NCBI RefSeq assembly: GCF_947623445.1
Contig: NC_135245.1
Location: 19,103,501-19,167,500 of the forward strand
Source of the DNA: Clavelina lepadiformis
Lineage: Eukaryota > Chordata > Ascidiacea > Aplousobranchia > Clavelinidae
Direction of reading: 5' to 3'
Length of the DNA: 64,000 nucleotides
Shown piece after piece: positions 9,322-36,300 of this stretch. Position numbers and translations under genes: made by a program. The notes under the pieces are model-generated. The model had not been told where the DNA came from and ran no database searches. It saw only the letters and a list, made by a program, of their open reading frames with translations. Each line of letters starts with the position of its first letter. Within the stretch, counting starts at the first letter, position 1.

Positions 9322-9682
9322 TTGTATATTAAATCTTGCAAATGAAATAACTGAAAGTGACATTCGAAGACTGACTTGGATACAGATACAAATTTCTATA
9401 TTTCGCGCTAACTTGTGTAAAAAACATCAAAGCTTCCAAAATTTAACAGCAAAATCTAATCCGCTTGATGGCGCTAAATAACTGTTTCAAATGCTTCTGT
9501 TCTTTCAGCAAAACCTTAATTATTCGTTTTAACGTACTTGATTAGCTGTCATTAGTATAATGCTAGGACTGATATAACATTAAGGGCAGTATATTTGAAG
9601 AATTTTTCAGTTAGCATTTGCGTTAAAAGTAGCTTTATTTTGTTGTCTTACTGAACTGTTGCAGGTTTACTGTTGCTTTGAA

Positions 9683-12601
9683 ATGAAAGTTAACTTGATT
9701 AAACGTTTAAGACGGTTGAAACGCCAGCTTAAAATTATAGCGATGGTTTTAGCCTGTTCATTGTTCATGTATAAACATATAATAACTACTAGAAGCAGAA
9801 AGTTAGTGGCACACCTTGATTCTAGAAGCCTCATTAAAAATCAGCTCTTCCAGTCAGACATCATGGAAAAAAGTACGATGAAGGAAACCCTGTTTTATTT
9901 CAATGAGTCGTTAAACATAGAAAATATCACCCCTGAAGATGACCAAGAACGTGCTTATCAAGGAAAGGTTTCGAATGAAAACGAACTTACTCAGACAAAT
10001 TCTGTCAATTGCACGTTATGGGAACCTTATCGGGATGACTTAATCGCCACATTGCCTTCTCGAATACAACTCAATCCAAGTAGATTTCTATATCCAGGTT
10101 TTTATGGAGGTCCCAACAACCAAATTATGGGCTTGCTGCAGTCAATTTATGTCGCAATTCGCCTGAATCGGTGAGCAATATACATTAACTTTTTACATGT
10201 ATCAAAAAAGGCTTTTGTGCTGGCATTTTCGTTGCATTAGGCTGGTCAACGAGCAATTTTGAAATTTGATATTGAGACTTCAGCCCTTAAGTTTAAAGCT
10301 GTACCGTATACAGTATATTGCAGATATTGATTTAACATCAAAAATACCACCTACTGTATGTGCTGTAAAAATTTTTCGCAAACCAATTACGATTTGCTAA
10401 CAATCTTTCCATAATTTCGTCCTTGTAGTTATGTAAATAACTTAAAACAGAATAAACAGAAAAGTAAGCATTTATGATCTGCATCCACATAACTAATTGT
10501 GGCTGCAGCTATTTGGACAAGATGTAGTGAATATTCCAACACCAAAGCCAATGTCGATTCTACATGAATGAAGTTGAAATACCTGCTGCTATACTGTGCC
10601 TATCGTACACGTTGATGTGTTACGTTACAAGTGACTAAAACGAAAAGTTTTTAACCTAAAATAACAAGGGATTTTTCTGATATTAATTGACGTGGAAAGT
10701 TTCGAAAAGTAATTGATAATTTATAACTGTGTGGATTCAGTAAATTATATTTAAACGTTTCTTCTTTGGTTTAATTCGAGTTTGCTGTATCCGTATACAC
10801 CTTACAAGATTTTATTTCAACATTAAACCTAGCCTCGCAAAAGCGGATTCATGGATTGTTGCATCACTTGAAAAGGACAACGACGTGAAATATGTTGAAT
10901 TTTCTTTGTAGGACTTTAGTGGTTCCAAGGTTCTCCACACATCAGTACACGTTTGGAAAAGTCGAAATTGTTCCCGCATTTCAGCGAATTAACATCGGAC
11001 GTCTGTGTTCGTTCGTAAGCTGCATTTCAATTGAGCAATTTCGCAAAACTTGCCGGGGAAAAATGGACGTCATTTTTAAAGTACGTAAGCAGTTGTTTGC
11101 GTGGATCTACCCAATAACATTTAATCGTTTTCTTTGATTTCAAATATTACCATAGCCTGAAACGTATGTTTGTAGACAAAGTATAACTGTAGGCCTAAGT
11201 TGTTTTTGTCGTTATATTGCTTGTATGTAGTGAAACCATGTAGTTGATATTTTAAGAACTGTCGCCAAGATCAATGGACAAAGCCCCCGGCTAATGTGAT
11301 GTATATATAATCAAGTATTTGAAGTACAGTCACAAAACCGCTTTGGTGGCAATTAACCATAAGTAATTCAACCGCAAACATCTTTCACAAAAGCAAAGCC
11401 GTTTGAAACTCATATTACTGTGATCTACACGTACACTATATAATTATGACAGCAAACAATGGCATCATCAAGTAATGTCGTCAAATTGCCTTCGCCACGC
11501 TTAACAAGTGAATTTTGTCAGTTTGATAAAATTATTAAATTCATGCTTTAACTATATCGGGAGAACAAACCACAGTGGCTGCAAACGAAATCAACACAAT
11601 AGCAATCTCAAAATATTTGTCAACGTTCGTTTCAGGCAAAGGAAGTCACCATTCAAAACGTGGAAAAGTACGAAAGAGACACAGAGATGAATATTCTACA
11701 AAAACCTGATAACGACGGGGCAGACAAGTTGAAACTATCTCAAACCGCTCAATCCGCGCTTTTGACATATCCCGACTCAAGCTACGTGATTTCACGTGAC
11801 CACTGGCTACCATCAAACGAGGACGACATCCGTGCGGTCTATAACACGACAGCATCCTGCGCGCTTCATGCATTGTCTTATCGCTCCGTAGAAATAATGG
11901 AGAAAGGAAAAATTGCTTTTCCTTTGCTTCCGAGCGCATCAAATATCCATAAAATTCCGGACGACGTCTTGTATTCGGCCGTTACAGACTCCGTGCATTT
12001 ACCACCCTGCGTTACTGCAGCAGCTGAGAACTATGTTAATGCTATCATAGGCAACAGGGAATATGTTGCTCTGCACTGGAGGTATAATGAAGAAGACTGG
12101 TTTAAGCCATGTCAGCGTCCGGAGAGGAAACCAGTGTGCGAGGCTTTGAAAAAAATTACTCCGCAAGATGTCGCCCATGCTATCGTCAACAACCTGCCGC
12201 CCTTGCAAAACAATGCTAAATTGAGAGGACGTTTGCCGGTTTACATCGCAGCTCCTCCGAGTTTGAAAGATTTTAAGCTTGAAATTTTCTCACATATGGA
12301 GCGAATTAACCCTTCGCTTGAAGCTGTTTCGGTTGAATTGGAACAATATTTCAAAAAAACCGGTCTTGTACAGTGCTGGCAGAAAGCTGATTGGGTTAGT
12401 CACGATGACGTCATATCCTTAACTGAAATGGAGATCGTGAGAATGAGCAGATATTTCTTCTACTCGATTAGGTCAAGCTGGTCAGCAAATATCCGACCGC
12501 TTAGGTGGGAATGGAAAGATGGGAATACAGATAAACTTTTTGAAGCTTCAATTTTTGACTTAATCACACACGCGAAATCCGGGCTCACGTCATTGGTTTA
12601 G
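9683..12601 (+). CDS. O-fucosyltransferase-like type II membrane protein, copy B
   Basis: Exons 9683-10170, 10912-11080 and 11636-12601 encode 540 residues; all three exon lengths equal those of copy A. I chose the ATG at 9683 because it aligns with the copy A start; the frame stays open a little upstream behind a possible 5'-UTR splice acceptor. Motifs are the same: membrane span at about 17-34, GGPNNQIMGL, LNRTLVVPRF, YVALHWRYNEEDW, VYIAAPP and SRYFFYSIRSSWSAN. The N-terminal stem (about residues 40-115) differs substantially from copy A, while most of the last exon is about 97-98% identical, with roughly 210 bp without a difference. This looks like a tandem duplicate kept similar over its catalytic part. 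Same inferred activity as copy A. Confidence 0.85.
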
Positions 12602-13434: not shown

Positions 13435-16211
13435 TCAAACAATGGATTGGCGCCTTATTTTCATTGACGCTGTTTTGAGAGAGTAATTGCTTCTCCATGG
13501 CAGCCAGGCCACGCCACCTTTGTTGTCATGCGCGCCACGAAGATATTCACCGTTAAGGTTGCTGGCTCCACTGAAACAGGCCGCGTACCACCAAGCGCCA
13601 CCATACTTCACAGCACAATGTGTGTTGCTTGACCCATCGTTGTCTCTGTCGTAGGTGGAAAAGGGACGTCCATTCAATCGTCCCAAACCGTCACCTGAAT
13701 AAAATATATTTTATGGTCAGTTCGTTGGCGCTTGGATCAAATTATGATGAACTTGTGGTGAATTATATCAGTGAGACGACTTATGCATTCTTCTACTATC
13801 CTTTTCGTTTTGAATTGGTAAACTGAAGTGCTTGCAGACAATTGTACAATGAGTTGTTTTTAATGGTCCAACGCTATATCAAGTATATAGCCTAGTAAAT
13901 GCTGTGTAATTTGGCTCACTTGGGACAGGAAATTCTGATCGTATTATGCAAATGGACACTATACCAGACTTGGTACAAATAAGAATTTTGTTGACTCTGT
14001 TATGGACTGACGTCATTTGTCGCTTGGCAAGAAAACAAGCGAAAACACCGAAAAGGCGAAGTAACTATTGAAGAATGACGCTTCGGACGCTAAGCAATCG
14101 CTAGCAAATGCAATGAACCAGTGCGTGGTTCGACGAAGTTAATAAGAAAAAATATCACTCTGAAGCGGGTGATAAACAGATTAAAACGGATATTTTATTT
14201 TGAATTATTCCGGACCGCAAAAATATGGTCATAAAAAGTGGCTGGCTTATAATACCAGTGGATTAATTATTTGGTGTCTACAGTCACTCACAGCATACCT
14301 GCATTTCCTGAAAATCCACCAACGCTAAGCGAGTAATTGGTAGCGGCCGAATTTATCTGGAAATATCTGAAAAAGGTCCGGTAGTCAATCAATAAAAGGT
14401 CAATAAACCACTGCAGTGTAGTTTAGGCTGCTACCCGTTTCTTCAGTGTGCGTACCTATATTTAGCAAATCTTGTCAGGGAGAGGAAATCCCCCAAATCG
14501 ATCCTGAGTTCGTGAGGCGATGCAGTGGTGATACGATGAATATTTTCAAGACCTTTACAAGACAATCTTTGTTAAATGAATTCACTAGAATCTTTGATGC
14601 AATGCATGGCGATGTGGTAGTATTACTGTGTCGACGTTTTTGTACTGCACGGTGGTAACCTGATCTACTGAAAGAAAACTTAAAAGGCTATCACTTAAAT
14701 TAGGATGTTGATGATGCTGTCAAATAGGCCATGGTAATGACTGTAAAAAGAATTTTACTTTGCTTCGAAGTTATTTAAAAGAAACTATTGTAAAAAATCT
14801 GTTGAGTTTTTGCGTTGACTGGGTGTTTCTAAGAATTATGACAAACGAACAAAGACCGATCACCTATCCAGTAGTCGTCGTCGGGGTCTCCGAATCCTAT
14901 GACGTAGTTGTTCCAGCCCAAGTAGAAATCTTGATTTCCATCCAAACGTCTCTGGATTACCTGAAGTGTTTAACACCGGTTTAACCATCCACGTTCAGCA
15001 TTGCACTCGATATTCTTAACAGTTATTGCCAAAGCAAATGACGTTGTTTAAGGACTTACGTCCCAGCCTCCATCGTCCGTGTCTTGGTCGCAATATATAT
15101 CGAATCCTGCTCCCCCGAAGGGATAAATTTTATAGACCTTGCTCTGTGAGTAACCGGCCCCGAGTAGTTCCAGACATGATTTCGGTCGAATATCTAAATA
15201 TGATGAAGCATATAAGTGTTTTGTACTGGACACTCTTATGTCGACTGGATGTGTAGTCCCACTTAAATATTTAGAAGAAAATGTGGCAATGGAATGGTCA
15301 GGTCGACTTAGGTCTACCTTGCAAACACCGGGGGGCTTTATTCCCTTCTCCCTGCCAGGTGCCATTTGACAAACAAGTAACGTAGTGTCCGTGGGTGAAG
15401 TTGTAACCATCATTGCATGTGTACTTGACGGTGTCCCCGGCAATAAACGGCCTATTCTGGTCGGTTGAGTTTATTAGAGTTGCGTACCTGACAAGTGGTG
15501 GATCTGCACAACCTAAAATGGCGGAATTGTGGTAAATCACAGGAATCGCCAATACCTTATTACTAGCATCACTTAAGAACTTTTCTGAAGATTATACACA
15601 GTTTTAAACGTAGATCACTTCTTCAGAACCATTTTTTTTTGTTTACTTTGTTTATATTTACAATCTTAAACTGCTGGTGGTCAAGCCTATGGTTTATGAA
15701 GATAAGGATATAACCAATCTATTCAGTGGAACATCCACAAATCTATTTCGCCATGCTTTAACCTTTAGCTCAGGTTTTTGTACGTCGTATTGTTTCTCAA
15801 GTGTCCTTTTACGTACAAGTGGTGACGTTAAACGTTTATTTAATCATAATGGAGAGCATACCTTTGAGGCACATCGGGGGGTGTCCCGTCTCCCAAGTCC
15901 AACTTCCATTCACTTGACAAGTGACAGAGTTGGACTGATCCAGGTGGAATCCTTCATTGCATTGATACTGGACCCTATCACTTTGTAGATAAACTGGAGG
16001 AGGCTGATCTTGTATTGTGCCTTGCTTTAACGTTGGTGGCGCCGAACAAACTTAAGAGAAGAGAACGTTTAAAGTAATTACGTTTGTCTTTTCAACAATC
16101 ATAACTTATTTCTCACTTCGAATAATTGGGACTTTTAGTTAGTTTTAGCTTGGTTAGTAATTTTAAAACTACTCTTGGGTTAATATTTTGACGCAAGTTC
16201 TGATTAAAATT

Positions 16212-16257
<46 letters not shown>

Positions 16258-17297
16258 GAGACAGAGAGAAGAGAGAAAAAAGAAGAAAAACAAAACACCA
16301 ATAAAGGGAGACGAGAAATGTAGAAAACTGAATGTTTACGAATCTTTATAACTTCACTAACTTTTTTTGCATTCCGGGGCTTTTTGCTGATATTTCCATC
16401 GCCACAAACCGCTTTTGTCACACACAGATGTATTGGATCCCACAAGCTTGTAACCGCTCGTGCATGTATAAGGAACATCTTCATTGACGAAATACATCGG
16501 AAATCTGTGACGCACTCCTCCATTTTCTAGCGTTGGTGGCTGGGTGCAATCTTTAAATATCATCGATGTCAAAACTTTCATGCATGACTTAATGTGCTTG
16601 CGTTAGCCTAAAGCTGATGAAATGAAATTATGCTTTAAAAGGATGCAGCCGAAACCTACTTGATGATTCACCATTCAAACGAGCTGACGAGGATGAATAA
16701 GGCTGTGGGGGAACCTAGAACAAGAAAAAGTTTTCTAGAATATATTCAAAATTAGACGTTTTTCTAAGGCAAGCTGTTACAATAAAACCAATTTCTCACA
16801 TTTGTGGCCAATCGCTTAACTCAGCCAACTCACAAAGCTTATCGTGCTTAATAATCTAAATGAGCTTAAGCCGATTCATGCTCACTTGGTGGCGAGTGAG
16901 CACAACAGCCAATACAACAACCAGAATAGTTATCATAATCGCCATCAAGAGAACCACAAACATAAACTTCATTCTCTTGCTGCATAACTTCTTAGAAAAC
17001 CGTAGTCCTCCTGCGTCGGCTAAATGTAAAACACATAATTTGATTTGCAAGTTACTAATGATGGTATTCTAACTATGGTTATAAACAACTATAACTGTGA
17101 ATCTGTTTGTGCCATTTTGGTTTTGTTTAGTTTTATATATTTGTTAGAATCTTTCGATTTCGAACTAACTTACGTAATTACGTTTAAATATAGACTAAGC
17201 TGGTTGAAAGCATGTTTTTTCCTGCGTAATACGTACAGATTTGGCTGGGTTCTTGTTGAACTTCATCCACTTGAGACCGGTAAGCAAAAGATTCCAT
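13435..17297 (-). CDS. Type II membrane protein with three CCP (sushi) modules and a fibrinogen-like domain
   Basis: Eleven exons in descending order: 17297-17237, 17019-16886, 16714-16660, 16550-16362, 16050-15862, 15512-15318, 15193-15060, 14960-14864, 14552-14456, 14366-14299, 13694-13435; 492 residues. There is no signal peptide. A short N-terminal cytoplasmic part ends in basic KKLCSKR, then a membrane span at about 38-62. Three CCP modules at about 84-146, 147-209 and 210-274 are each one exon bounded by phase 1 introns and keep the four-Cys plus Trp pattern. The FBG domain (275-492) has IYCDQDTDDGGWD, YDRDNDGSSN (calcium-loop-like), GAWWYAAC and NLNGEYL. CCP and FBG modules commonly bind glycans, microbes or complement-like ligands, so an immune or self/non-self surface receptor is inferred. 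No intracellular signalling domain is visible. It lies head-to-tail with three TIR-FBG genes. Confidence 0.88.
16213..16275. repeat. (GA)n microsatellite
   Basis: An uninterrupted AG run followed by ACAGAGAG and AGAGAAGAG imperfect units, in intron 4 of the CCP-FBG gene. Confidence 0.95.
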
Positions 17298-19357: not shown

Positions 19358-22300
19358 CTATCCCGTTCTTGGTCGGATTTTCATTTCGCTGCTAACGAGA
19401 TTGGAAGACCCAATTTCGAAATGTAAATCATATCTTCCGTTCAAGTTGGCTCTGTCGCTTAAAAAAACACAGTCCCTGTACCACCACCCCCCTTCTTCAC
19501 TCTCGGCGCAATTTCTGGAACTTTCCATGTCGTTTTCGAGGTCACTTGTAGAAAATTTAGTGTTCAAAGCATTCTGCATGAAGTTGGGAGTACCTGAAAG
19601 AAACTTTGTATCAGCGAGAGAGTCGTGATAATAAGGATAATGGTCGGGTGTAAGGTTCAACGATTGCAGACTATATTAAACATGTCGTTACTTAAGCGTC
19701 AAAGCCAACGTTTACTCAAATAACCGAAGTGTAAATAGAAGAGGCCATGATTTAGCTATATTTAACCACAAAGTAACCATGTCATATAGGTAACACTTTT
19801 TTATATACCTGTGGACCCTGAAAATGTTCCAATCGAAGTGATCGAGAATTCGGTGCTCAAATCTCCTACCACGAACGAGCTGCGGAAACAATTTCAATCG
19901 CTTATTCAATTAATGCGTCAAACATAAATACGTATTTTGAATTTTGTGGTTACAAAATGAACCTGTATTTTGCGTCACCGCGTTCAGAGAAAATACGCTT
20001 CACAAAATCTACTCTAAGCTCTTGTACGCCACCACTGGTCATTGTTGAAATTAGGTCCAATCCTGCGAAAAAAAATTGTTGTTGTCAAACCAGTAATTAC
20101 GTTTTGTTTTTTTGTCTCTGTCAAATTTTTCCCTATTTTTTGAAGTTGTATACTTTAAATGTTCATGAAGTGCCGTAATATACTGTATATAGCTTTATTT
20201 GTCGCCAAATTTGAATAGAGCCTATAATTCTATCTTTACCTTTGTTATATCAACATTGTAAACAAACCAAAAGCATTGAAATAAGACCAACAAAAGTTGG
20301 AATACGACTAACCGCGTAATTAGTAAAGCGTGGAAAACATAACAAAGTTTTTGTTTTGATAAAATTAATCAAACCATCCAGAACTTATTCCTCTGTTTTC
20401 TATTTCTATTTTCTATTACTTATTATTCTATTTGTCTGATATTACTCTGTTCCTGATACACAATCGCGTCTCGCTTAATAAGCAAACCACCTACCAAGCC
20501 AATGTTCACCACTTGCACTTCCAAACCCACTTCTGTAATCCAGCCAAGGTCTGTTGAAGTTCAGTGAACCGTCAAATCGTCGTTGAATTACCTGGTTTAA
20601 GCAAAAAACACTAATTGGAAAAGATGATACGCTTTGGTTCTTGTTTTACAACTCGCTTCAAAAGTAGCCTAACATACAACATACTACATTTCTAACTTTA
20701 ACTATCAGTTGAATACGTGGCTAAAAGCATTGTATACGATAAGATGCCCATTTTTAAAGTTTTTTCGAGTTTCTAAAATAAAACGACGTAACGCGAGCAT
20801 TCAAGCGTGAAATTGGTCTTACCGTCCAACCACCCCCGTCTCTCACTTGGTCGCAATAAACTTGGATTGGATCAGAGATTGGGTAGATAGTATAAACACC
20901 ACTTGTATCGGAGCCAGACGTGTAATGATCTCGACAAGATCTTGGTAGGTCTGTAAATTATCATTTCTTTTACTGAACGAACATGTACTATAAGTTTACT
21001 ATATAAGAACGTGTACTACACTAATAACTGTAATTGTAATTAAACTATAACAAAGTAGAATATTACTAATTCTGTAAAATATATATATTTTCATCATACT
21101 TTATCTACATATAACCGATATACCTGAATTAGCTGCTGGTGTCGAATTGGAATTTGTGGTAAGATTGGGATTAGCGTCAGCTGCTGTTCCTATGAACCCA
21201 AAGTATCCACCAACGGCGGCGCCAACAATTGCAAGCAGAAGAAGAAAGACGAGCAAACATATTTGCTTGCGGTGTTTGCTGCAATCTAAAAATAACAGCA
21301 CATGCAAACGCCCAATATCTTTGTAGAAATATATAAAATTCTGTGTACAGCACAAGATACACCAACATTTTGTATTATACTCACAATTGGTCCCAATCGG
21401 TGTTGGAGTACGATGGGACGGCGTGCTTTTTGTACTTATCAAAACGTTTGGCATATTCACTTGGTATAATAAGTTGAAAGAAAAACGTTTCGTCAAGATT
21501 AAATGTAAACTTTTGCCGCCTACGTTCTTCTCAGATGTTTTTGCACAAACTTTTGTACAAATCCAACTTTGTATGATTTCTAGAATAATATATAGTCTCA
21601 CCAAATAACAAATAATTTTCAAAGACTTACCCGAATCAATGGATTTGCTGCAAAGCTCTTTAAAGATTGAGTCAAAACTTTTACCGCTTGTGAAATCGTG
21701 ATAAAGTTGCCCAGCCGTCACACAGTCTGAACAAAACGGAATAAATTATGAAAAAAGCCTTTGCCAACGACAAATAAAAACTTTGTTCCATCGTTAAAGC
21801 TAAAAAAAACACACGAACTTAAAAACTTTTCCGGTTTAAAGTTTTTCTCAGTGTAAATGGGAACGATCGGAATTTTCAAATCTGCTGCCATAGAGGCTTC
21901 TCTTTGACAATTTTCACTTTCTTGATATTTCCTTGACACAAATATAAGAACGACGTAGGCGTTACGAACTGCCTCGTCCATTTGATCATAAATATTTTTT
22001 TTCATATATTTGATGTCGATCCAAACTTTATATCCACGATTCTCCAACTTTTCATAGATCTGCAAAATCAAAAAGAAATAGAAACACAGCAGGTGCCAAC
22101 CAATTATAAGTATGCCTTATTTTCCGACTGAATTCTATTGCTCTAAATCATACTTATGTATGTCTTAGACTATAAAGCCACAGGTCACTTAATTTGAAAC
22201 AGAAAAAAATTACAGAAGTTATAACTTTGAAATTTCTTGACATTTCCTAAAGTTTCCTCCTTTAGTTTCAGCCGCACTTTCAAAAATAGATCAAGAAAGA

Positions 22301-22599
22301 TAAGGTTAAATGACACAAACTATATGCTATATGAAGAAACTTTTACTTTTTTGGCCAAGTTTTTTGATTCCCAATTGTAACTGATCATGACGTGTTTGTC
22401 GTCGTTACTTGCTTTTGGTTGTGATGAGGGTGAATTGGTTCCTACAACCTACAACAATCCATATTGTTGGTTACCACAATAAAAACTGCTAAACAACTCA
22501 AAAAATAACTGAAATAATTTAAACTCAAATTTTAAACCAAAAGTTTTAACTCACAGACAAATTCTCGTTGCTTGTAATTTGGTCGTCTGCTTGATCCAT
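19358..22599 (-). CDS. TIR - membrane span - fibrinogen-like receptor, copy 1
   Basis: Ten exons in descending order: 22599-22555, 22448-22347, 22059-21819, 21726-21631, 21285-21124, 20950-20823, 20591-20495, 20062-19963, 19879-19809, 19593-19358; 425 residues. The cytoplasmic TIR domain (about 34-155) opens with [11 protein letters not shown], continues [20 protein letters not shown] and [17 protein letters not shown], and ends LYHDF. A basic SKHRKQ precedes the membrane span (about 169-193), so the protein is type II with the TIR inside. A short stalk with NXT/NXS sites leads to the FBG domain (about 216-425): [61 protein letters not shown] and EMKIRP. FBG lectin domains recognise acetylated or other glycans and TIR domains signal by assembly or NAD cleavage, so a pathogen or allorecognition receptor is inferred. 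E103 lines up with the catalytic Glu of SARM1-type TIRs. Confidence 0.88.
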
Positions 22600-24184
22600 A
22601 TTTTTTGCAGATATTCTACGAAAATTTTGATCTATTCTCAGTCCTGTTGTTGCTAGCAACCAATTTTGAGGAATTATTGCGATCCTTTCAACAAAATTCT
22701 CACCGTCAGCCTTTCGTGGAACTTGTTCTTCGTCTGCGTATGTCTGAAGAGTTCAAAATAATTCAACGTCTTTGTTTTGCGAGCGCCTGCTTGAAATAAT
22801 GCGCGGGAATTATTGTGCAAGTGCCGGTGACTTCTTTTTTTAGTTTTTATCCGAAGCTTTCCTTTAGCCTTATACGCATGAGCAGTTTAAGCTTTTCCCG
22901 AACAAAATTACAAGCTTAACTTGACGGTTCAATGTTCACCGAGCTGTTTAACTTTATTTTTCTCAAAAGCACGGCCCATATCAGCTCCAGCGATTGCAAC
23001 AAAAGCAAATCGAACAAAGGAACTTGCTTTAGACTTTGATGCGATATCCAAAAACACCGATGTGAAGCTGGTTATTGTGGCAAGCCTTGATTCAACGAGC
23101 TTAGAATGCTATCTCAGTTGCGCGAATCATGATGATGATGATAAGATGTGACCAGAATTCCAGAATCCAAACTTTTAAAATCAAAATTTGTCTTTTCCTG
23201 GTCTTCTGAAAATAGGCCATAAACGTCTTCATGGTAACGCTTTTCCTATAGCAAATGAGCTAACTTGCCCCAAACAATTATGTGGTACTGTTTAAAGTTG
23301 CATGAATTTCGAAAAAAACCTGTTTCCAACTTTTTTTATGTTTTTCTTTGGTTTATGTTGCACAATAAACTACATTTTGTCCTTTAACCGTGCTTTTAAT
23401 GGAAACTAACCGCCTTTACAGGCGTAACCTTCTCGCCGGTGCATGCTTTCTCAATTATGACGTAATTGATGCTAAAACACGGGCCTTGCAGTAAACTAAG
23501 AATAACTTGAAACTTCAATATAAATCAACACGCAATGAATTAGCATATCAATTAGCATATTAGCATATCACAATATTGATGAGAGAAGCAGAAAAATAAA
23601 GCGATTAGCACTTAACCTACTGGTCTATAATTAACGATTAATTATTCGTAATTATGTGAGCTTTTTTCTCTAAATTTGATCCAAATCATTCCATGATGAT
23701 GCCAAGCTTTGTCCATTGCACGTTAAAGCTTCGGATTAATCGCATTGTCATGCTTAAAGCACATTGGGTTCCAAATCTGACGATAGTGACCGTCAGTACA
23801 AATGTGGAACAGCGAATCACAAAACAACATGATTAGCCACTTGGTGTTGACAAAGAGTAGTTGAGACTTCATTGTACACTTCATGGTCCAGCGCTATATC
23901 CTCGTCACACGTCACGTATTGTAATTTTTCATAAAAGTTCACCAGAACGCGATATGTTTCGAGATATTTATATTGAATGACAAATTTTCAAAGGCACATA
24001 TTCACATGAAAATGTCAATTTACAAAATAAATGCTGAAAGAAATAAACGAATGGAATATCGTTTATGCAAACCCGAATATGTAATAACCCGTTGCATACA
24101 CCATAGAGTCAAGCATACACCAGAACAGCAGCATAAAATCACACGCACAATCATTGAAATGTCGCTTGCTTCAAACCGTTTTGT
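22600..24184. other. Intergenic between TIR-FBG copies 1 and 2
   Basis: Contains the copy 1 upstream region, with two short blocks shared with copy 2 (given separately). A plus-strand frame at 22921-23151 has no recognisable domain and no partner exon. Nothing else seen. Confidence 0.4.
22788..22897 (-). promoter_or_regulatory. Conserved upstream blocks of TIR-FBG copy 1
   Basis: TGCTTGAAATAATGCGCGGG at 22788-22807 matches 27863-27882 at 18 of 20 bases, and the 25-base block at 22873-22897 (core ATGAGCAGTT, then AAGCTTTTC) matches 27991-28015 at 23 of 25. The blocks are in the same order upstream of both genes, about 190-300 bp before the copy 1 ATG and 240-390 bp before the copy 2 ATG. Either a shared promoter or residual duplication similarity. 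Confidence 0.4.
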
Positions 24185-27100
24185 TTAAATATCAGCCTCG
24201 GTTCTTGGTCGTATTTTCATTTCGCTGCTGATAAGATTGATGGAAGCAATTTTAAAATCGCGGTGATAAGCTCCATTCAAGTTGGCTCTACTGCTTGCCG
24301 AACTGCATTCATCGTACCACCACCCGCCTTCTTCACTCTCCGCGCAATTCTTGGTACTTTCCCTGTCGTGATCAACGTCAAATGTGGAAAATTGTTGGCC
24401 CCATAGGAGTTGTATGAAGTCGAGAGAAATACCTGAGAAAATTTATTAAATTGATTGAATCATGATTAAAAGCGCGGTTATTTCTTTTAACATTTACAAA
24501 AATACCTTGAACATTATTATGAAAGCAACATCTATATAGATTTTAGCTTGTAGTACAATAAATACTATTATGTTTGCAACAATATTGTACTTATCGATCT
24601 TCAAACCATACCAATCACAAAGCTTGACCATACCTGTGGAAAGAGTGGAACACGTGTCGATGCCAGTGACTGCAAATCGAAAGCTTAAGTCACCAACCAC
24701 AAATAGGCTGCAAAAAAAACAAGGAAAATCCTTCATTCAATGAATAGGTCAAGGAGCATTAAAATTCTGAAATTATGTGACCAAGAACATTAACCTGCAT
24801 TTCATGGAACCCGGTTCCGATAAATGACGCCTCACAAAATCTATTCTGATTTCTTGACCACCACCACTAGTCATAGCGGATATAAGGTCCAGCCCTGCAA
24901 AACAATTTCTTTATGTTGATTATTATATAACTGCAGTGTAACTATTATTAGTCATCTAAATCATGATTTATTCACGTCCATATTTTTTGTTTTTATAATA
25001 AGATGTCCATGAATCGAAAATAAATCGTCATTTTATTGTCACGCTAAAAAACGTTTCGGTTAACCGATAATTATAATGCGCAGGCTATAATTTGTATACT
25101 TATTATATGCTTAGCTTGTCAGTACCGAGCCAATGCTCGCCGCTGGCACTTCCAAACCCTTCAGTGTAATCCACCCAAGACCTGTTGAAATTTTCTGAGC
25201 CATCAAATCTTCTCTGAATAACCTGGTTTTAAGCAAACAACACAATGGAAAATTTAACATTGGTTCGTTATTGTTCTTGCTTACAACTCGCTACGAGTGT
25301 TCGGGTTTAGTGTAAGACGACCCGGTTGAATAATTACGGATATAAATAATATTACAGGCGATGGACTCGGGAAAAGACTGTCTTGTTTATGTTTAAAACA
25401 ATCTTTGAATGATATAGGTGTCTTTAACATCTGTACAAAATCTTTAAGATGGAATCTAAAGGATATTTTAAATATTGCAAAAGAGAAGCGTGACCATTCA
25501 AGCGTGAAATTGGTCTTACCGTCCAACCACCGCCGTCTCTCACTTGGTCGCAATAAACTTGAATTGGATCAGAGATTGGGTAGATAGTATAAACACCACT
25601 TGTATCGGAGCCAGACGTGTAATGATCTTGACAAGAATTTTGTCTCACTACGATATTAAATATGTTTTTCGCAATTTCGTTTTAACAAACAAGACACTAT
25701 CACTCTAAAGTCTAAATACTCTAAATTCCAAGATACACCACTAATATACAGCATACATATATGTACAGTAATGACCATATTACAGTATATTTTCATCCAT
25801 ACAGTCCATTGCACCTGAACTAACTACTGTCGTTGAATTGGGAATTAGTTGATTGTCACCGCCAGAACTCGTTCCTATGAACCCAAAATATCCACCTACA
25901 CCGGCGCCAACAATTGCAAGTAGAAGAAGAAAGACGAGCAAAAATATTTGCTTGCGGTGTTTGCTGCAATCTAAAAGTATCATCTAGCATTTAATTAACA
26001 ATTCAATCCAGTTCAATTTTGACGTCATAAATATGGCTGAAGTCTTACAATGTCTTTCTTCCTGCCTTCGCGAATCATGGCTCTGCTTTACTTTTGGTGA
26101 GATTCCCAGTGCTTTATCTTGCCCCTGTTTCTTTTGATCTGATAAAGAAAATTTTTTTCAAATTTAGGTTTAAAGTATTGTACTGTGCATGTGACTGCTT
26201 TATATCCGCCTGGTAAAGTTTCCAAGTTGCGAATGCAATGGTGTATGATGGAATATAGCTTACAAACGTTTGTGAACTAAATGCATAAATGTTTACAACA
26301 TCAAATAATGTATATTTAAAAACTTTAAACTTTGCGTTATATTCGACATTTACATTCGAGAAGCAGTTTTTACAAAGTTTACTATAATATGTTCATACAT
26401 CTTTGAGCTTCTCGTAACAGTTGCAATAACTTTAAAAGACTTACGTGATTCAATGGATTTGCTGCAAAGCTCATCAAAGTTTGAGTCAAAGTTTTTGTCG
26501 TTTGTGAAATAGTGGCGGAGTTTTCCAGCTGTCAAAAGTTCTGAACAACACAAAACAATTTATAACAAAACCGTTATTGTCAGAAACAAATAAAACATTG
26601 TTTCGCGATAATTAGCAAAATTAACTTTCCTACTTAAAAACTGTTCCGGTTCCAAATCTTTCTCAGTGTAAATGGGAACGATCGGAATTTTTAAGTCTCC
26701 TGCAGTGGACGCTTCCCGTTTACAATTTTCACTTTCTTGATATTTCTTTGACACAAATATAAGAACGACGTAGGCGTTACGAACCGCCTCGTCCATTCGA
26801 TCATAAATATTTTTATTCATACATTTGATGTCGATCCAAACTTTATATCCACGTTTCTCTAACTTTTCATAGATCTGCAAAATCAAAATGAAAACATATA
26901 AATATGAGCAAAGACTAAATGCTTACCACAATCAACTTCCTATACATCGGTTCACTGCGAAGGAATTTTACTTTTTTGGCCAATTTCTGAGACTCCCAAT
27001 TGTAACTGATCATGACGTGTTTCTCATCGTTATTTGCTTTTGGTTGTGAGGAAGCGGGATTGGCTTCATTAACCTAAACAATAAAGGTTTAAAAATTGAA

Positions 27101-27625
27101 ACATCATAACCTTATATGAGTGGTTCTCAATCGGGGTGCCATTTGCGTTTTGCTAGGGTGCCGCGAGCTATTGCAGATTAGTCCAGGGAATACGGTAGCA
27201 TGCTTTGATGTTATTTTGAAATCATATGCTTTTATTATGCCATAATACCGGAGCTATGTTTGAGGTCACAAATGTTATGCACCGGTACTGCAGTTTATTT
27301 TGTGTTTTTCAAAACTGTTTTTAATGTAGAATTTTGATTTCAAACTTTACTCCTAAATTTGGTTTCAGTCGATGCGGAAACTTTTAGGTTCGACTGTGGG
27401 TGCCGCAAAATCTTTTTGTTGTTTGCAGAGTGATGAGAGCCACAAAAAGATGAGAACCACTTCCTTATATAGCACAAAATATAAAGTCAAAAGTTTACAT
27501 TATAAGGTCGGTCACAACGATTTAAATGCTGAACAGCTGATAAGGATAATCAAAACTCAAAACCTGTAACTCACAAAAAAATATTCCTCGCATATATTTT
27601 CTTCTGGATTCCTTTTTGCAGACAT
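24185..27625 (-). CDS. TIR - membrane span - fibrinogen-like receptor, copy 2
   Basis: Ten exons in descending order: 27625-27575, 27073-26972, 26874-26634, 26540-26445, 25970-25815, 25647-25520, 25222-25126, 24894-24795, 24707-24634, 24432-24185; 430 residues. Same plan as copy 1: TIR (about 36-157) with [22 protein letters not shown] and [17 protein letters not shown] (E105 at the putative NADase position); SKHRKQ then the membrane span (about 172-195); short stalk; FBG domain (about 216-430) with the near-identical [13 protein letters not shown] exon, then [16 protein letters not shown]. The last exon is much more divergent (TFDVDHDREST, GGWWYDEC, NLNGAY, EMKIRP) and has extra C-terminal residues. 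The first exon is unrelated in sequence to that of copies 1 and 3 and lacks an acidic MD start. A hAT MITE sits in intron 1. Function inferred as for copy 1, with a different ligand face. Confidence 0.87.
27118..27462. mobile_element. hAT-type MITE with 8-bp target duplication
   Basis: The ends read GAGTGGTTCTCAATC and GATGAGAACCACTT, inverted to each other and close to the common hAT terminus. CCTTATAT flanks both sides (27110-27117 and 27463-27470), an 8-bp duplication as hAT elements make. GGGTGCCGCGAGC and GGTGCCGCAAAATC lie inside. It is 345 bp long with no coding capacity, in intron 1 of TIR-FBG copy 2. Confidence 0.85.
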
Positions 27626-27862
27626 GCCAGATTATAATATATCCACCATTCTTCTTATGCTTGCTCCAATAAATGACAAAAAACGTCTTAGCCTATCGAT
27701 TCTTGATAACTTCTACAAAACTTGCAAACCAAGTTTTAAGGCCTGTGCATTCTCGTCAGCAAGTTTTAAACCTATTCGAACTATAAATTTTCGTCTCAGT
27801 TAGACCTATATTTTTACGAATCTCAAATAACCTGACTTTCCTGCTTTAATCCGCGTGACCAG

Positions 27863-28015
27863 TGCTTGAAATAACGCTCGGGGGTAAAGTGGGTTTATTA
27901 CCATGACTTCTACTTTTTGTAAGTTTAATTTAATTTTTTTTCCTCAATAATCTGGTATTGTTTCCAGAGATGTATTTCAGTATTGTAACCTACGTATGAG
28001 CAGTTCAAGCTTTTC
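27863..28015 (-). promoter_or_regulatory. Conserved upstream blocks of TIR-FBG copy 2
   Basis: Partner blocks of those at 22788-22897: 27863-27882 and 27991-28015. No equivalent was found upstream of copy 3. Confidence 0.4.
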
Positions 28016-30123
28016 TTTATAGTTTCTCTACCTTCCTATTACATGCATTGCTTGCTATATTACTAAAGCTTCCTACTGCCCTCGATCAAAACAATTATAG
28101 GGTACCCAATACCCGAAAAATTATAGGGAGTACGTACTCCAACGTAGTCATCTTTGTGCTCTTTATAATTAAGATTCCCTTTCATTTTAAGGATTATTCA
28201 TTTCTAAAGCTCATCCAGAATAAAATGTCGCGGTGGCAAAATCAATCAAAAGTTCATTACTTTTATAAACGCTTTTGTTTGTTTTTTTAAAATTGCACCA
28301 AAAGTATCCTCAAAATCCAAATAACAAGTCATTGAAACCAGAAGAGTATAAAATCTATAACTGCTTACTGTAGTTTGAGAATGAGCACACGACAACTTTA
28401 ATATCAGAAGATCACCACGATTATTATGGCGATTCCGGTTATGACAATTTCTTGACAAATCGATCCGAATCTTTCGTTTTGAATTAAAACGTTCCTTGAT
28501 CAATGGTTTTGTTGAAATAAAACAAAACTTTCGTTTCGAACTTGATCGAATTGAAAAACTGAAATCCTTTAAATTCAAAAATTACTCAATTTCATTTTAG
28601 CTCAAATTAATCCAGAGGTTATATAACGGTCTAAATCCGCGTTTCAATGTTGGAATTATTTTGCTGGAATTGGTCGCAAAACACAATATAAATTGTTATT
28701 ACAGTACAGATCGCTGCTTGCTTCTCTATTCTTGTGCTTGGTTAAGTTCGGTGAGAAAGTGACCCGTCACGCTGGAAAAGTTGTTTCAATTTTTGCGCCT
28801 AATAGAGAGAATAGGGGTAAATATCAACCCAAAGTTTTATTTGGACAAAGGAAAAATGTGAATAAAGCTTTCGTCGCGACGGCGGCTTTAAGACGAGTCA
28901 ACATAATCCTGGCTCAACAAAAAGGGAATAACCTCTTCTTTACTTTCGAGCGGGATTACAGAAAGATGCGCGGGTATTCTTAAGATTTGAGCACTTATAA
29001 GACCTGAGTTTTCATATACGCAGGTTAACCAATGGTATGGTCATATATCAAAGTTCTTTTACAAAGTCAACACAACATCGTCATAAGCGAACAACACAAT
29101 AGAAGATAAAAATTAAATTAAATAGTTGCTAAAAAATAGAAGCAAAAAGCTTCTACAATAAAGCGACCGCGGCATAAACAATAGAAAATCTCGCTCGTTT
29201 ATCTAAATTTTATGACATGACCTAAAGTAACCTGGAGACGAGATAGACGCAAAAAACTTTTTCATGATTGGCGCTAGACCTACCACATTCTTTCAAATAT
29301 AGACCGCCCTTAATTGTTTATAGTGTAATCCGCTCTCGTAACAAAAGCCACCCCAAGAATTATTTTTGAGCTTAAAGCGGTGTTGAAACCCGTAGTTCAC
29401 CAAAATTATGCCACACAATCCGTAGTAAGAATACGCAAAAAAATGTTGGCAGTACAAATTACAAGTGAATAATATTAAATCAAATAATACATTCCCATAA
29501 GGATGGACATTTTGTAAGATTTGTGCATTATGGTGTACCTTATAAATTAATATAATTAAACTTAAATTATGTTAACTTAATATGCATTACTGCTGTATAG
29601 CGGCTAAAATAATATGAACCGTTTAAGTAGACGAAATTAATAAACGTGAGTCGCGGCACATGTTCAAGGAAATAGGGAAAGTGTTTTAATGTAATAAGTA
29701 GAATCACTTCGATGTTAAAACGCCGCCAGCACTTTTAGCCTAAAGTTAAAGCACTAAAAGGCTAAACTGAAACTTACAAGAAAAACTGAAACTTAATTCT
29801 TCCAGGGCGAGTAAACAAAGAAGAGCAAACGTATATCTCGGATTGCGTTTTATGAATAAGTTGCTATTGCGTTGCAAACACTCAATAATCACTATAATTA
29901 TAACTATTAAGATGTGGTTGGGAGGTGCAGAAAAGTCCTTGAAATCGTCTGCAGTATTCAGTAAAATTATTCATATAAAATATAAAATTATTCACTATAC
30001 CCATAGCTTGCATGGCAGTGACGTGACATGCTTCATGGGGTGTCAAGCATTGATATACTTTGAAGGAAATTTCATTTATTATTAACAATGGTCCAAGCAT
30101 ATCTGATTGGTTAAAATTATTGT
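28016..30123. other. Intergenic, no gene recognised
   Basis: Between copy 2 and the 3' end of copy 3. A frame at 28693-28983 lacks a good ATG start and resembles nothing I know. No repeat seen. Confidence 0.4.
30075..30080 (-). promoter_or_regulatory. Poly(A) signal for TIR-FBG copy 3
   Basis: AATAAA on the minus strand, 44 bases past the copy 3 stop codon. Confidence 0.5.
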
Positions 30124-33100
30124 CTAACGGCTGGTCCGGATTTTCATTTCGCTACTAACAAGAATGGAAGAACCAATTTCGAAATGGAAATAATATTCTC
30201 CGTTCAAGTTGGCACTGTCGCTTGTAAAAATACAGTCCCTGTACCACCACCCGCCCTCTTCAATCTCCGCGCAATTTCTAGAACTTTCCATGTCGTTTTC
30301 GACGTCACTTGTGGAAAATTTGGTGTTCAAGGAATGATCCATAAAGTTGGGAATACCTAAGATATAAACACCATTAAGAAGAGTAAAAAATGAAATTTTA
30401 AAGTAGGTTGTGTTATACAGGACAGTGGAGCACAAACTGGTGAATATCATTATGTTTTAACTCATCCAAAATGACCCTTAAAATCATATAAAGTCTATAC
30501 ATATAATCTAAAATATAAATGAAATATAAATATCTCTATAAAATCTTCTTAATATACCTGAGGACCCCGAAAATGTCCCAACGGAGGTGATCGCAAATTC
30601 AGTGCTTTGATGTCCAACCACAAATGTGCTGCAAAAACACAAAGAGGAAAGAGTTAAGTTATTTGAGTTATCTTTTGTTCAACTAATTCGTCGATGAGAA
30701 CATTCATACACAACGATATAGATAACAACGTTCGTAGTTTCCAGCCCAAAAAGAAGTCGCATTCTTTTCTGGACGCACAAGGAACGTGGACAAATCATGA
30801 CTTGACATTTACAAGCAGCAATGCTGACAACCAACTGTAGCGGACAAACATTAAAAAAGTTCCCGTGGTCCCAACATCGGTTTCCGCTTGTCAATGCTTG
30901 CAAACTCATGACACCAGTTCCAAGTATGTCAGAGACGTGATGGAACTTAAGAAAGGCGAACTGAAAGCCGCTATAGCTTAAACTTTTGTAGCAACGAGTC
31001 GGCATCAGACATGTTGCCAGTATGCACAGAGCAAATAACAAGCGTAAAACCAAAAAAGGTAAGAAAAACAAATACTGTGTCGGCAGCCTTCCCCTGATAA
31101 CAGTAAGAATGCAAAAGGCCCGCTCAAGGTTTAGACAAATGGGACGCCTGTTCTCTTCTGTGAATATGAGTGAGTGAATAACACCGAGTTGTTATCGAGC
31201 AAGTGGTTCGAAAGGTCAGGATCACTTCAGTGTGGCTGGGAGTAGTTAAAGTAACCCTGGACCGATTGCTCACGTACTGCCGACACCTTGAGCCAATAGG
31301 CATGAAAATCACGCCTCGGGCCGCCTTGATGACATAGGGGCGCTGGTATTTTTACTCTGCTCTTCGTACAGTAGCTTTGACAATAGCAGTCTACTTCGCT
31401 GCTCGTTACAGCACGGTAACATCGACACTGTCATTAACGGTGTCTTGTGTAGGCTAACGTATGTTGTGACTGAATGTCAGCGTCTTGCATCACTGGAAAA
31501 CTTCCCGATTCCTCCAACCAGCGGGTCTTGATCGCGAGAAAGCTCTTTCTTTTGTTTTTCAGGCGACCAATCTGTCACACTCGCCCCATTTAAAGCTTCT
31601 TGCTTCACCAAGTAAGCAATTCCAACAATTAAGACCGAGACAGCCATTTGAGCCGGCGCATTGCAATTGTTCAGGTGCAGCTCGTTGGTCCAGCCATAAA
31701 ATGATGGCAGAGTGGCATGGAAGTCCTGCCGGATTTTGCAATTTTACTTTCGACGCTGTATCTCACTTCAGCATCGGACTATCGCTGTACAGAACAGCCC
31801 GGATGGCTGCGGATTAACCGACGTCGATTGATTCCGCTCAGATCCTTGCAAGTGTTTGGTGGCAAACTTAGCGGCTTGTGAGTGTGGTGCGGAGGAGGAA
31901 ATCGCAGATCATATTGACTGTTCCATCTACTTCGTACTTCAGAGAATACATGACCGGCGGCTTTTAGATGATATCACGGGCCAGCACCAGCTGCCCGAGC
32001 CATTCTGTATAGTCCGGGTTGTTGAAATGCATTGCTCACATGACGACGAACGGTGATATGTAGAAATACAATGAACAACAAAATTCAACCTGTATTTCGC
32101 GTAACCATGCTGGGAAAACAAACTTTTCACAAAATCTATCCTAAGCTCTTGAAAGCCAGCTCTTGTAATTGCGGAAATCAGGTCCAGTCCTATATAAAAA
32201 TTGTGTAAAATAATACAATTAATGCTCTATTTAATGGAGTACTCAATTATATACTTTCATTTATTTATACCAAGCCAATATTCGCCACTTGCACTTCCAA
32301 AACCTCTCCTGTAATCCAACCAAGGTCTGTTGAAATTCAGTGAGCCATTAAGTCTTCGCTGAATTACCTGGTTTAAGCAAAACTTTCGGGCAATTTAGAT
32401 TGAAGCTGCTCGTTTTCTTGTGCTTGTTGCATAATTCAGTGAATGAGTGAATGAGTGTGTGAGTATTAGTATTGGTAAGTCTGTATACCATGTACAGCAA
32501 TTGCATTAGTTAAACTTACAGTAGGCCTATATTATACATAGCAACTGGTAAAAGAATTATGCACACGTATTTCACAATGTACTTGAAAACACTTTGTTGA
32601 AATAGTTTAATCTTTTTTTAAAAAAATTTTATGTATAGAACTGAGGAAAGGAAAAAGTGTCAAGTGCGACCATTTCAACATGAAACGTGTTGGTCTTACC
32701 GTCCAACCACCGCCGTCTCTCACTTGGTCGCAATAAACTTGGATTGGATCAGAGATTGGGTAGATAGTATAAACACCACTTGTATCGGAGCCAGACGTGT
32801 AATGATCTTGACAGGATCTTGGTAGGTCTGTAAATAATTTCGTTCGGTTTAAGACGATTTAATGTCAAGAACTTAGTAAATTACCCAGTATAACTTTAAC
32901 CAGTACAGTATAGCCTAACGCTTTTGGTCTTGCAGAATTTATACATCAAAATCTTGATACTTGCATCAAGCAGTAGGCTATCATCAATGGTTTTGCGTAA
33001 GTTGATAAATTCATATAAATTGTTTTAATTCTAACTCGAGTTAGGCCTATGGTTGACTTTATACAATCTAAGCCTATTAAGCCTATACAACATATCTTGC

Positions 33101-35296
33101 ACGTTACAAAGTAGTCTAATGTTTTTCCAAAAGTAGCTTGAAACTGGGTCAATACCCGGGCTTGGAGTAGTTGATTCCAGGCCCGTAACAGTATTCGACC
33201 TTGTGTGTGCTAATTCCGTCGCATTTTGCACTTCTCCAATGCCAGAGCTGGTAGTTGTTGTTGATTCGGGGCTTGCATTAACAGTGGGCGTTGCTGACGC
33301 ATCGGTTTGATTGCTAGGATTCAAAATTCCAGCCACGTAGCCAAAGTAGCTTCCGACCGATGCCGCAACGATTATAAGTAGAAGAAGAAAACCTAACGCA
33401 GTCATTCGTCTGCGCAGTTTGGAGCAACCTGAATAAAAGTACGCGTGGTGGAAGAAAACCAGCATTCTTCTTGGCTAAAACATGAGTATGAGGAAATCAT
33501 CCAACAACAGAACTATAGCCTATATAAAATAGGTCTCAGTGTTAATTTATAAGGTACAGTATGCTGCGTGGTTTCACTTTTAATCCCAAAAAGTCTTCGT
33601 AAAATATTCACTTGGTTCTTCTTTTGTGTGGCTTGTACAACTGCATTTTCGTCAGAATACATATGATCTGAAAATGTATGAAATAATTAAAACAGTTTAA
33701 TAATGGTGCAAGATCTTATAGAAAGCTTTACTAACAGCCCACAAAAGGCTATACCTTTTAAATTCTAGCGACAGTTTAGACCAGAGCAAATACGTACAAA
33801 AAGTAAAGAATTTTCAATAAAAATGTTTGGCTATCATGTGTTCAAGAAGTTTAAGTCAATTTAATTAACCGAGAAGTTTTAAGGCTACTTGAGTTTATAT
33901 TTTAAAGATATGTTGGATTGAAAGCATAGAATTATAAGATAACCAAATTGAATCACGACAATGTGTCCACATCAGTTCATAAACATTTAACAAATATAGA
34001 ACATAGGCCTAAGCTTAAATTTTATTCAAGGAGATAATAAAAAATTATTCAATTTGTATAGTCTCGACATAACTATAGTGAAAAGTACGCTAATCTTGTT
34101 AGATTGACTCCCGTTGATTGACAAACTAACTTGTTTTATTTTACATTTTTTTAAACACTAAATATATTCTGCAAGTAGCCTTCATGCTAAAGTGAAGATT
34201 AAAGTTATACGAAGTAATGAGGTACTTACAGGAATTGATTGCCTTGCAGAGTTCCGGAAACTTTAAGTCAAAATCTTTCTCGTTTGAAAAATCGTGATAG
34301 AGTTTTCCAGCAATCACACATTCTGAACGAAGTGTAAGAAAATACAAGACACGTTTTCATTTTCTTACAAATGTCAAAGTTTTTTTTACGAGTTAAGTTA
34401 CAATGGACTAACTTAACAATTTTTCCGGTTCAAAACTTTTCTCAGTGTAAATGGGAACGATCGGAATTTTCAAATCTGCTGCCATAAAAGCTTCTCTTCG
34501 ACAATTTTCACTTTCTTGATATTTCTTTGACACAAATATAAGAACGACGTAGGCGTTACGAACTGCCTGGTACATTTGATCATAAATATTTTTCTGCATG
34601 TATTTGATGTCGATCCAAACTTTATATCCACGTTTCTCCAACTTTTTGCAAACCTAAGAAAACAGAAGAACATATGAAAATCAACACAATACCTTTGAAT
34701 GCTGTTGTCAAAATGCCAATTGTTGTATAAAATGTCGTCACAAGCTTTTACTTTTTTGGCCAATTTTTGTGATTCCCAATTGTAACTGATCATGACGTGT
34801 TTCTCGTCGTTTCTCGTTGCTTTCGGTTGTGAAGAAGTTGGGTCGGCTTCAATGACCTAATAAATAGATTTACAGTGAGGGAACAATCTTTTCTGCAAGA
34901 GCTTGTACTTGGATCTTAACGTCGGAATAATTCGAACCATGTAGTTAAAATCGTACAAATTGCAGCAATATTTCAAATTTTGTTTTATACTTTATGCTAT
35001 TCCATAACCCAAACCGTCGTAGATATATACCAATAAAATCAAATTTATCAACAAATATTGTATTTGGCGTCCTTTTGCTGTCCCTTGTATAGTGGGACTA
35101 TTCAGTTGTACGTATTTGTAGGTATTTGTACGAGTTCTTCTGTACAGCGCAAACTGTTTATCATTGCAATGCTATAAATAGAAAACATATAAACACCTTC
35201 TTACAGCTAAATGCTGTTTCACACAAAACTTACGGTTATTGGACCTAGGTCCATATATTCGTTGCTTGTGGATTCATCGTCTTCTGATGAATCCAT
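30124..35296 (-). CDS. TIR - membrane span - fibrinogen-like receptor, copy 3, with long Ser/Thr-rich stalk
   Basis: Ten exons in descending order: 35296-35234, 34856-34752, 34653-34413, 34322-34230, 33428-33156, 32827-32700, 32367-32271, 32189-32090, 30628-30558, 30356-30124; 467 residues. The acidic N-terminus MDSSEDDEST is followed by NEYMDLGP, a possible SH2-binding tyrosine site. TIR at about 42-160 has [22 protein letters not shown] and [17 protein letters not shown] (E110 at the putative catalytic position). Basic SKLRRR precedes the span (about 176-199). The stalk (about 200-258) is far longer than in copies 1 and 2 and rich in Ser, Thr and Asn, as in mucin-like spacers. FBG (259-467) has the shared [13 protein letters not shown] exon, [41 protein letters not shown] and EMKIRTSR. 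Intron 8 is 1,461 bp, against 83 bp in copy 1, because of an insertion. Confidence 0.88.
30690..32050. mobile_element. GC-richer insert in intron 8 of copy 3, probably a LINE fragment
   Basis: Roughly 1.3 kb, more GC-rich than its surroundings, fills an intron that is tiny in the paralogues. A plus-strand frame at 31856-32056 reads ACECGAEEEIADHI, resembling the Cys-rich tail of many non-LTR retrotransposon proteins (CxCG...DHI). No full reverse transcriptase, terminal repeats or target duplication were recognised and the edges are approximate. Family assignment is weak. Confidence 0.4.
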
Positions 35297-36180: not shown

Positions 36181-36300
36181 CATTTTCATTTCGTTACTAA
36201 TGATATTGGAGGAAGCTGAATGAAAACCGAAGACATAAGTTCTATTCAACTTGGCTCTTTCGTTTAGAAAGAAGCACTTTTTAACACCACTCTTTCTTAA
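36181..36300 (-). pseudogene. Remnant of an FBG last exon
   Basis: The plus-strand text TTTTCATTTCGTTACTAA, then TTCTATTCAACTTGGCTC, follows the reverse complement of the TIR-FBG last exons (compare 30133-30240: TTTTCATTTCGCTACTAAC and TTCAAGTTGGCACTGTCGC). The conserved block coding for NLNG and EMKIR is still traceable, but the frame is lost and no other exon of the gene was found. It suggests a fourth TIR-FBG-type copy once lay here. Confidence 0.6.

Follow-up and report, generated by a model that had tools for sequence, protein, structure and literature searches.

Cell-surface TIR signalling in animals is known mainly from leucine-rich repeat (LRR) and immunoglobulin (Ig) receptors with TIRs of the Toll-like receptor (TLR) class. 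TLRs and IL-1 receptors cross the membrane once, with the recognition domain outside and the TIR in the cytoplasm. Fibrinogen C-terminal (FBG) domains are found in ascidian v-Themis, molluscan FREPs and ficolins, which act in self/non-self or immune recognition. Ficolins are secreted or coat proteins. To our knowledge FIBCD1 has no TIR, and we know of no SARM1, plant TIR-NLR or bacterial TIR NADase with a membrane span and a lectin head. Excerpts of the sources describe v-Themis (PMC7018956) and FREPs (PMC10903818) as secreted or coat proteins too and mention no TIR. They also describe FIBCD1 as a type II anchor with a C-terminal FBG (PMC9994688) and the TLR-like TM-TIR proteins of Hydra as a membrane span and a cytoplasmic TIR outside the LRR format (PMC8260672). 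Here we consider a 64,000-nucleotide stretch of chromosome 6 of the ascidian Clavelina lepadiformis (NC_135245.1, positions 19,103,501 to 19,167,500; hereafter the window). Three neighbouring genes in it, called A, B and C, each encode a TIR, a membrane span, a stalk and an FBG domain.

Like TLRs and IL-1 receptors, A, B and C have a single span between a recognition domain and a TIR. Unlike them, the TIR is N-terminal in a type II protein, FBG stands in place of LRR or Ig, and the TIR is a TIR_2 without a TLR or MyD88 match. The predicted type II span and the C-terminal FBG are shared with FIBCD1. SARM1, plant TIR-NLRs and bacterial TIR NADases are, weakly, the closest solved relatives of the window TIR profile, and the Glu of the C-x-x-E motif is retained. 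The Hydra TM-TIR proteins appear, in the excerpt of their source, to work with separate LRR proteins, whereas A, B and C combine the recognition domain and the TIR in a single chain. An earlier note on this DNA knew of no described receptor that joins FBG directly to TIR. That agrees with the open-licence full-text literature searched, a body without preprints, whose excerpts name no protein with both TIR and FBG. Amphioxus has 28 TIR domain combinations, 20 of them specific to amphioxus, in the excerpted text of PMC2575513, whose supplementary lists may hold an FBG combination. The architecture is apparently undescribed. We argue that A, B and C are probably three tandem single-pass type II receptors made by exon shuffling, in which the FBG head would bind and the TIRs would cluster and signal.

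The exons were joined by script into three ten-exon genes in tandem, all on the minus strand:

22599-19358, minus strand: gene A, ten exons, 425 aa, TIR-membrane span-FBG (Pfam TIR_2 E 3.6e-23, Fibrinogen_C E 2.7e-45).
21631..22448, minus strand: gene A exons 2-4 (22448-22347, 22059-21819, 21726-21631), TIR module with end phases 0,1,1.
21124..21285, minus strand: gene A exon 5, a Cys and basic residues next to the membrane, then the span itself and a short stalk that carries N-glycosylation sequons.
19358..20950, minus strand: gene A exons 6-10, fibrinogen C-terminal domain.
27625-24185, minus strand: gene B, ten exons, 430 aa, TIR-membrane span-FBG (Pfam TIR_2 E 2.2e-22, Fibrinogen_C E 5.6e-42).
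26445..27073, minus strand: gene B exons 2-4, TIR module.
25815..25970, minus strand: gene B exon 5, membrane span and stalk.
24185..25647, minus strand: gene B exons 6-10, FBG domain, with exons 9-10 diverged.
35296-30124, minus strand: gene C, ten exons, 467 aa, TIR-membrane span-FBG (Pfam TIR_2 E 3.3e-22, Fibrinogen_C E 1.6e-47).
34230..34856, minus strand: gene C exons 2-4, TIR module.
33156..33428, minus strand: gene C exon 5, membrane span and Ser/Thr-rich stalk.
30124..32827, minus strand: gene C exons 6-10, FBG domain.

Position 19358 is the end of the gene A stop codon and 35296 is the gene C ATG. All 30 exons were placed and the spliced reading frames stay open, which reproduces the lengths of 425, 430 and 467 aa given before. 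All 27 introns are GT-AG. The exon-start phases are identical in the three genes (0,0,0,1,1,1,0,1,2,1) and so are the exon roles. The short hydrophilic N-terminus comes from exon 1, the TIR from exons 2-4, the span and stalk from exon 5 and the FBG from exons 6-10. Gene C has a longer stalk and an intron 8 of 1461 bases. The weak points of the models are exon 1 of gene B, which relies on a different upstream ATG and is the exon we are least sure of, and the poor GTTCGT donor of gene A exon 3. At the start of gene B intron 2 (26971-26927) there is also a stronger-looking in-phase donor 45 bases downstream that would add 15 residues within the TIR. The receptor architecture is confirmed as real and intact-looking in three copies.

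Pfam matches each of the three proteins to TIR_2 (PF13676) at 79.7-82.8 bits against a cut-off of 28 (E 3.6e-23 to 3.3e-22) and to Fibrinogen_C at 144.5-162.6 bits against a cut-off of 22 (E 1.6e-47 to 5.6e-42). Pfam matched TIR and FBG families alone in these proteins, hence no NACHT and no LRR. A Kyte-Doolittle scan finds one strongly hydrophobic segment in each protein and no signal peptide-like hydrophobic stretch at the N-termini. C-S-K and basic residues precede the span, and a stalk with N-glycosylation sequons follows it. The net charge of the 15 residues on the TIR side is +2, +3 and +5 in A, B and C, and it is -1 on the FBG side in each. The positive-inside rule is well established, so this basic charge supports type II insertion. 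We infer from it a topology with the TIR in the cytoplasm and the FBG outside. The earlier note had proposed the same layout of cytoplasmic TIR, one span, stalk and extracellular FBG, and the gene models, Pfam and the hydrophobicity and charge scan agree on it. Its type II reading is supported for all three proteins, since each has a single span with positive charge on the TIR side, and the tunicate origin it suggested is supported.

Both halves of the protein are under purifying selection. The ratio of nonsynonymous to synonymous substitution (dN/dS) was calculated by the Nei-Gojobori method for the pairs A-B, A-C and B-C, in that order. It is 0.31, 0.27 and 0.38 for the whole coding sequence, 0.32, 0.33 and 0.23 for the TIR, and 0.24, 0.20 and 0.37 for the FBG. 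Exon 5 is looser (0.51, 0.34, 0.74), and exon 1 (2.00, 0.24, 0.59) is too short to judge. Third codon positions are over-represented among the substitutions between copies (p 3e-5, 5e-8 and 6e-4 for the three pairs). This excess and the whole-gene ratios of 0.27-0.38 mean the open architecture is not due to chance. Exon 6 has a dS of 0.07-0.15, far lower than the 0.83-1.92 of exons 7-9, which suggests gene conversion. One could take such low divergence as a sign that the copies are recent pseudogenes or an assembly artefact. However, ten exons are open in each of three copies and dN/dS is well under 1. The kaClaLepa1.1 assembly of Clavelina lepadiformis is built from HiFi reads with a quality value (QV) of 67.4, according to an excerpt of PMC10884593. 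We find this explanation hardly credible.

The splice from exon 4 to exon 5 is predicted from genomic DNA, and this is where a single protein can be doubted. There could be two transcription units per copy, with exons 1-4 making a soluble TIR-only protein and exons 5-10 a separate type II FBG receptor. An in-frame ATG lies inside intron 4, upstream of exon 5, in all three copies (56, 4 and 12 codons in A, B and C), from which a protein without the TIR could begin. Poly(A)-like AATAAA or ATTAAA motifs occur in intron 4 of B (one) and C (five), and A has none. A membrane-Sushi-FBG gene, for which the genome TIR search gave no TIR match, sits next door. All of this would suit two units. On the other hand, exon 4 has no stop before its GTAAGT donor in any of the copies, and the acceptor of exon 5 is canonical and of equal phase in all three. 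The upstream ATGs differ in place among A, B and C. In gene A intron 4 is open in frame, and exons 4 (the TIR end) and 5 (the membrane exon) share one 214-aa open frame, so they are joined even if the intron is retained. Finally, the unit occurs three times with its order kept. We argue that two separate units in each copy are very unlikely. A second promoter may give rise to a TIR-less form, either alongside the fusion or in its place.

The membrane exon (exon 5) has only three matches in the genome, which are A, B and C themselves. The TIR query has 76, with 29 on C4 at 0.71-3.42 Mb and 18 on C5 at 22.5-23.9 Mb. One C4 unit was read by eye (L043, L044), and its TIR is in three exons with the same end phases of 0,1,1 as in A, B and C. 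A NACHT frame follows that TIR (E 1.2e-14), and for 25 of the 29 TIR exons on C4 a same-strand NACHT match lies no more than 5 kb downstream. Exon 3 of the window TIRs is 51-55% identical to that of these TIR-NACHT genes (C4 0.7-3.4 Mb), and the intron phases are equal in the unit read. The difference lies in what comes after the TIR, which is NACHT in the C4 genes and a membrane span with FBG in A, B and C. On C3 (L047, C3:23152000-23161999) protein kinase frames are followed by the same TIR exon module, with a Ras-like frame further on. The TIR exon set looks like a shuffled TIR_2 module that is also present in TIR-NACHT and kinase-TIR loci.

A tree of exon 3, extracted with tblastn from the related loci, places the TIRs of A, B and C in one clade with support of 100/99. 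It covers 27 loci of the 76 matches and the three window TIRs, giving 30 rows of which 21 are distinct, and its bootstrap has not settled. The tree does not identify the donor TIR family, and 14 of its 18 inner branches are open. C4 from 0.3 to 3.7 Mb appears as a large TIR-NACHT (NLR-type) array, for which the counts of 29 TIRs and 25 with NACHT are lower bounds. An LRR-like frame was seen by eye in the C4 unit, and it has no Pfam match. The 18 TIR exons on C5 22.5-23.9 Mb are interleaved with pairs of FBG and REJ frames. One of these TIR copies (L045) has an in-frame stop, with a Kelch-like frame about 4.4 kb downstream.

The FBG half may be traced closer to home. FBG exon 10 has 42 matches in the genome, with a sharp drop after A, B and C (E 1.2e-24 to 1.2e-9). 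The gene beside the cluster, of which only the 3' part is placed, also carries an FBG:

13435..17019, minus strand: 3' part of the neighbour gene, comprising a membrane exon that is basic on its N side, three Sushi domains and an FBG.

Judged from exon lengths, its FBG exons have phases 1,0,1,2,1, the same as in A, B and C. It is probably a type II membrane-Sushi-FBG protein, and likely a relative of the FBG half of A, B and C. Reading by eye also places a putative small extra exon at about 16714-16672, after its membrane exon and ahead of the Sushi exons.

We argue the simplest history is shuffling and then duplication, because the phases are common to both parental classes and the window TIRs form a single clade. 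A local FBG type II receptor would have gained the 5' TIR_2 exons ahead of its membrane exon, at a phase-1 intron. The fused TIR-FBG gene would then have been duplicated in tandem. Both the direction of shuffling and the order of these steps are deduced rather than seen.

The FBG head differs in places from its relatives. Its nearest solved relatives are ficolin-1, ficolin-2, tenascin-R and FIBCD1 (4m7f, E 4.2e-38). The Asn-Cys-Ala of ficolin-1 is retained. An acidic position in what we take to be the calcium loop is Glu instead of Asp in A and C. The domain has four Cys in A and C and six in B, which would allow the two disulfide pairs of fibrinogen-related domains. The acetyl site of FIBCD1 is Cys414, His415 and Tyr431 in an excerpt of PMC10825690. 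In the window FBG, unlike FIBCD1, Ala comes after the Cys at the equivalent ficolin position, and four extra residues lengthen the loop ahead of NLNG. Two of the changes count against binding by the head. Relative to ficolin-1 there is a four-residue insertion after the last Cys and ahead of NLNG, in the region with which ficolins bind acetyl groups. The usual C-terminal stretch of FBG is also shortened, with the Fibrinogen_C match ending at profile position 189-190 of 221 in all three proteins while the neighbour gene reaches 219. Lectin function is not assured, because the acetyl-site region is altered and the C-terminus is short. The sequence points to a likely change of ligand, or to none of the ficolin type.

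An altered pocket and a shortened C-terminus would also suit decoy or dead-end receptors, a family of lectins that is expressed and signals poorly but serves adhesion, uptake or competition. Turnover in the cluster fits this too, as there is a relic of exon 10 beyond gene C:

36181-36282, minus strand: FBG exon 10-like fragment that matches gene A (tblastn E 5e-5) and is probably what is left of another, decayed copy.

However, the TIR (dN/dS 0.23-0.33) is about as constrained as the FBG (0.20-0.37), and that is not expected of an unused tail. We consider decoys unlikely and prefer receptors that signal. Another FBG-like piece lies in the window at 1159-2111 on the plus strand, with stops inside the match.

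What the receptors would signal depends on the class of TIR. A profile of eight TIRs (three from the window and five genomic relatives) matched 20 distinct PDB sequences at E<=1. These are Cat1, RPS4, RPP1, an ADP-ribosyl cyclase TIR, TIR-APAZ, SARM1/tir-1, a TIR domain protein and C3HR3_4r, and no TLR, IL-1R or MyD88 name is among them. A single window TIR matched 23 distinct PDB sequences at E<=10, several of them non-TIR, and again none was a TLR, IL-1R or MyD88 structure. As a control, the TLR-like TIR exon of the same genome (L001, a TLR-like gene with Pfam TIR and LRR frames) gave matches to TLR1 and TLR2 (about 1e-13) and to MyD88 (about 1e-4). Pfam scores the gene A domain at 82.8 bits for TIR_2 and 22.9 bits for TIR. 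By these comparisons the window TIR is not of the TLR, IL-1R or MyD88 class. Since it falls outside the TLR class, the LRR and Ig receptors say little about its downstream pathway. Bacterial defence TIR families were also matched (bSEFIR at E 1.1e-8, ThsB at 1.8e-8, and ThcB4 at 4.9e-8, the last far under its cut-off). These fit the same broad TIR class and we give them no further weight.

One can imagine that the fusion protein is made and that its TIR, like those of Toll-like receptors, is no enzyme but a scaffold to which MyD88-like or other TIR adaptors are recruited. The genome has a TLR-like gene with LRR and TIR frames (L001), which makes an adaptor pathway probable, and TLR TIRs are likewise placed under membranes. 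The failure of the window TIR to match TLR, IL-1R or MyD88 structures even at E<=10 speaks against this, and so do the strong matches of the control and the wide gap between TIR_2 and TIR scores. We regard a scaffold as a serious possibility, though its chances are somewhat below even.

The other possibility is an enzyme. The Glu of C-x-x-E is present in all three window TIRs and in 27 of 27 related loci, and the Cys is present in 26 of those 27. The motif aligns with the C-x-x-E of RPP1 and RPS4, whose catalytic Glu residues are given as E164 and E88 in an excerpt of PMC7282519, a chain numbering that is not matched to our alignment. Several results weaken this argument. The PDB matches are weak, with a best E of 0.0014 for the profile and 0.022 and 0.036 for single sequences. 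Glu is also found at the same position in the genome's own TLR-like TIR (SAWCQYE), and the same excerpt reports that the TIRs of TLR4 and MyD88 are not NADases, so Glu alone does not show an enzyme. AlphaFold modelling of TIR exon 3 alone, on the contiguous translations of the three copies (pLDDT 49.9, pTM 0.37), gave no support and was not used. Cleavage of NAD+ by the window TIRs is a prediction that we favour slightly.

The mechanism we propose for the fused receptors is simple. The FBG head outside would bind a surface ligand. Several receptors would cluster, and the TIRs inside would be brought together and signal. The output would be NAD+ cleavage, which is slightly favoured, or recruitment of TIR adaptors. 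In its fullest form this is a one-protein lectin-to-enzyme receptor, built from ascidian NLR-type TIR exons and a type II FBG receptor. FBG binding would cluster NAD-cleaving TIRs under the membrane, and the direct result, either a loss of NAD+ or a cyclic nucleotide signal, would need no adaptors. We offer that version tentatively and think it rather doubtful. An immune or allorecognition role for A, B and C may be suspected. Allorecognition had not been studied in the Clavelinidae as of a 2020 review, in the part available (PMC7344649).

Other features of the genome and window deserve mention. Elsewhere in the genome FBG frames have REJ (polycystin-1-like) frames as partners on the other strand, at distances of 2.9-6.0 kb. 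This holds for 7 of 7 FBG matches on C5 22.46-23.58 Mb, 7 of 8 on C9 12.92-13.27 Mb and 3 of 4 on C3 23.14-23.53 Mb. One pair was read directly (L046), with frames at 4691-5428 on the plus strand and 1412-3142 on the minus strand, and the partner frame has PKD and REJ matches. It looks like the genome has at least 17 self-sterility pairs of the v-Themis/s-Themis type; an excerpt of PMC7018956 gives three such pairs for Ciona. Within the window, 5079-8746 and 9599-12598, both on the plus strand, are two similar genes in tandem, whose O-fucosyltransferase-like matches are weak and fall under the cut-off. A near-identical open frame occurs inverted at 61746-62135 (plus strand) and 63216-63584 (minus strand), and the two copies probably form the arms of a mobile element or an inverted repeat.

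Since the genome still shows relatives of both parental exon sets, how the TIR-FBG receptors arose can be put to a direct test. They are new as a variant of known receptor kinds, and the signalling is the interesting part. If our reading is true, an FBG head and an NADase-like TIR in one type II chain would be another way in which animals couple recognition outside the cell to a TIR.

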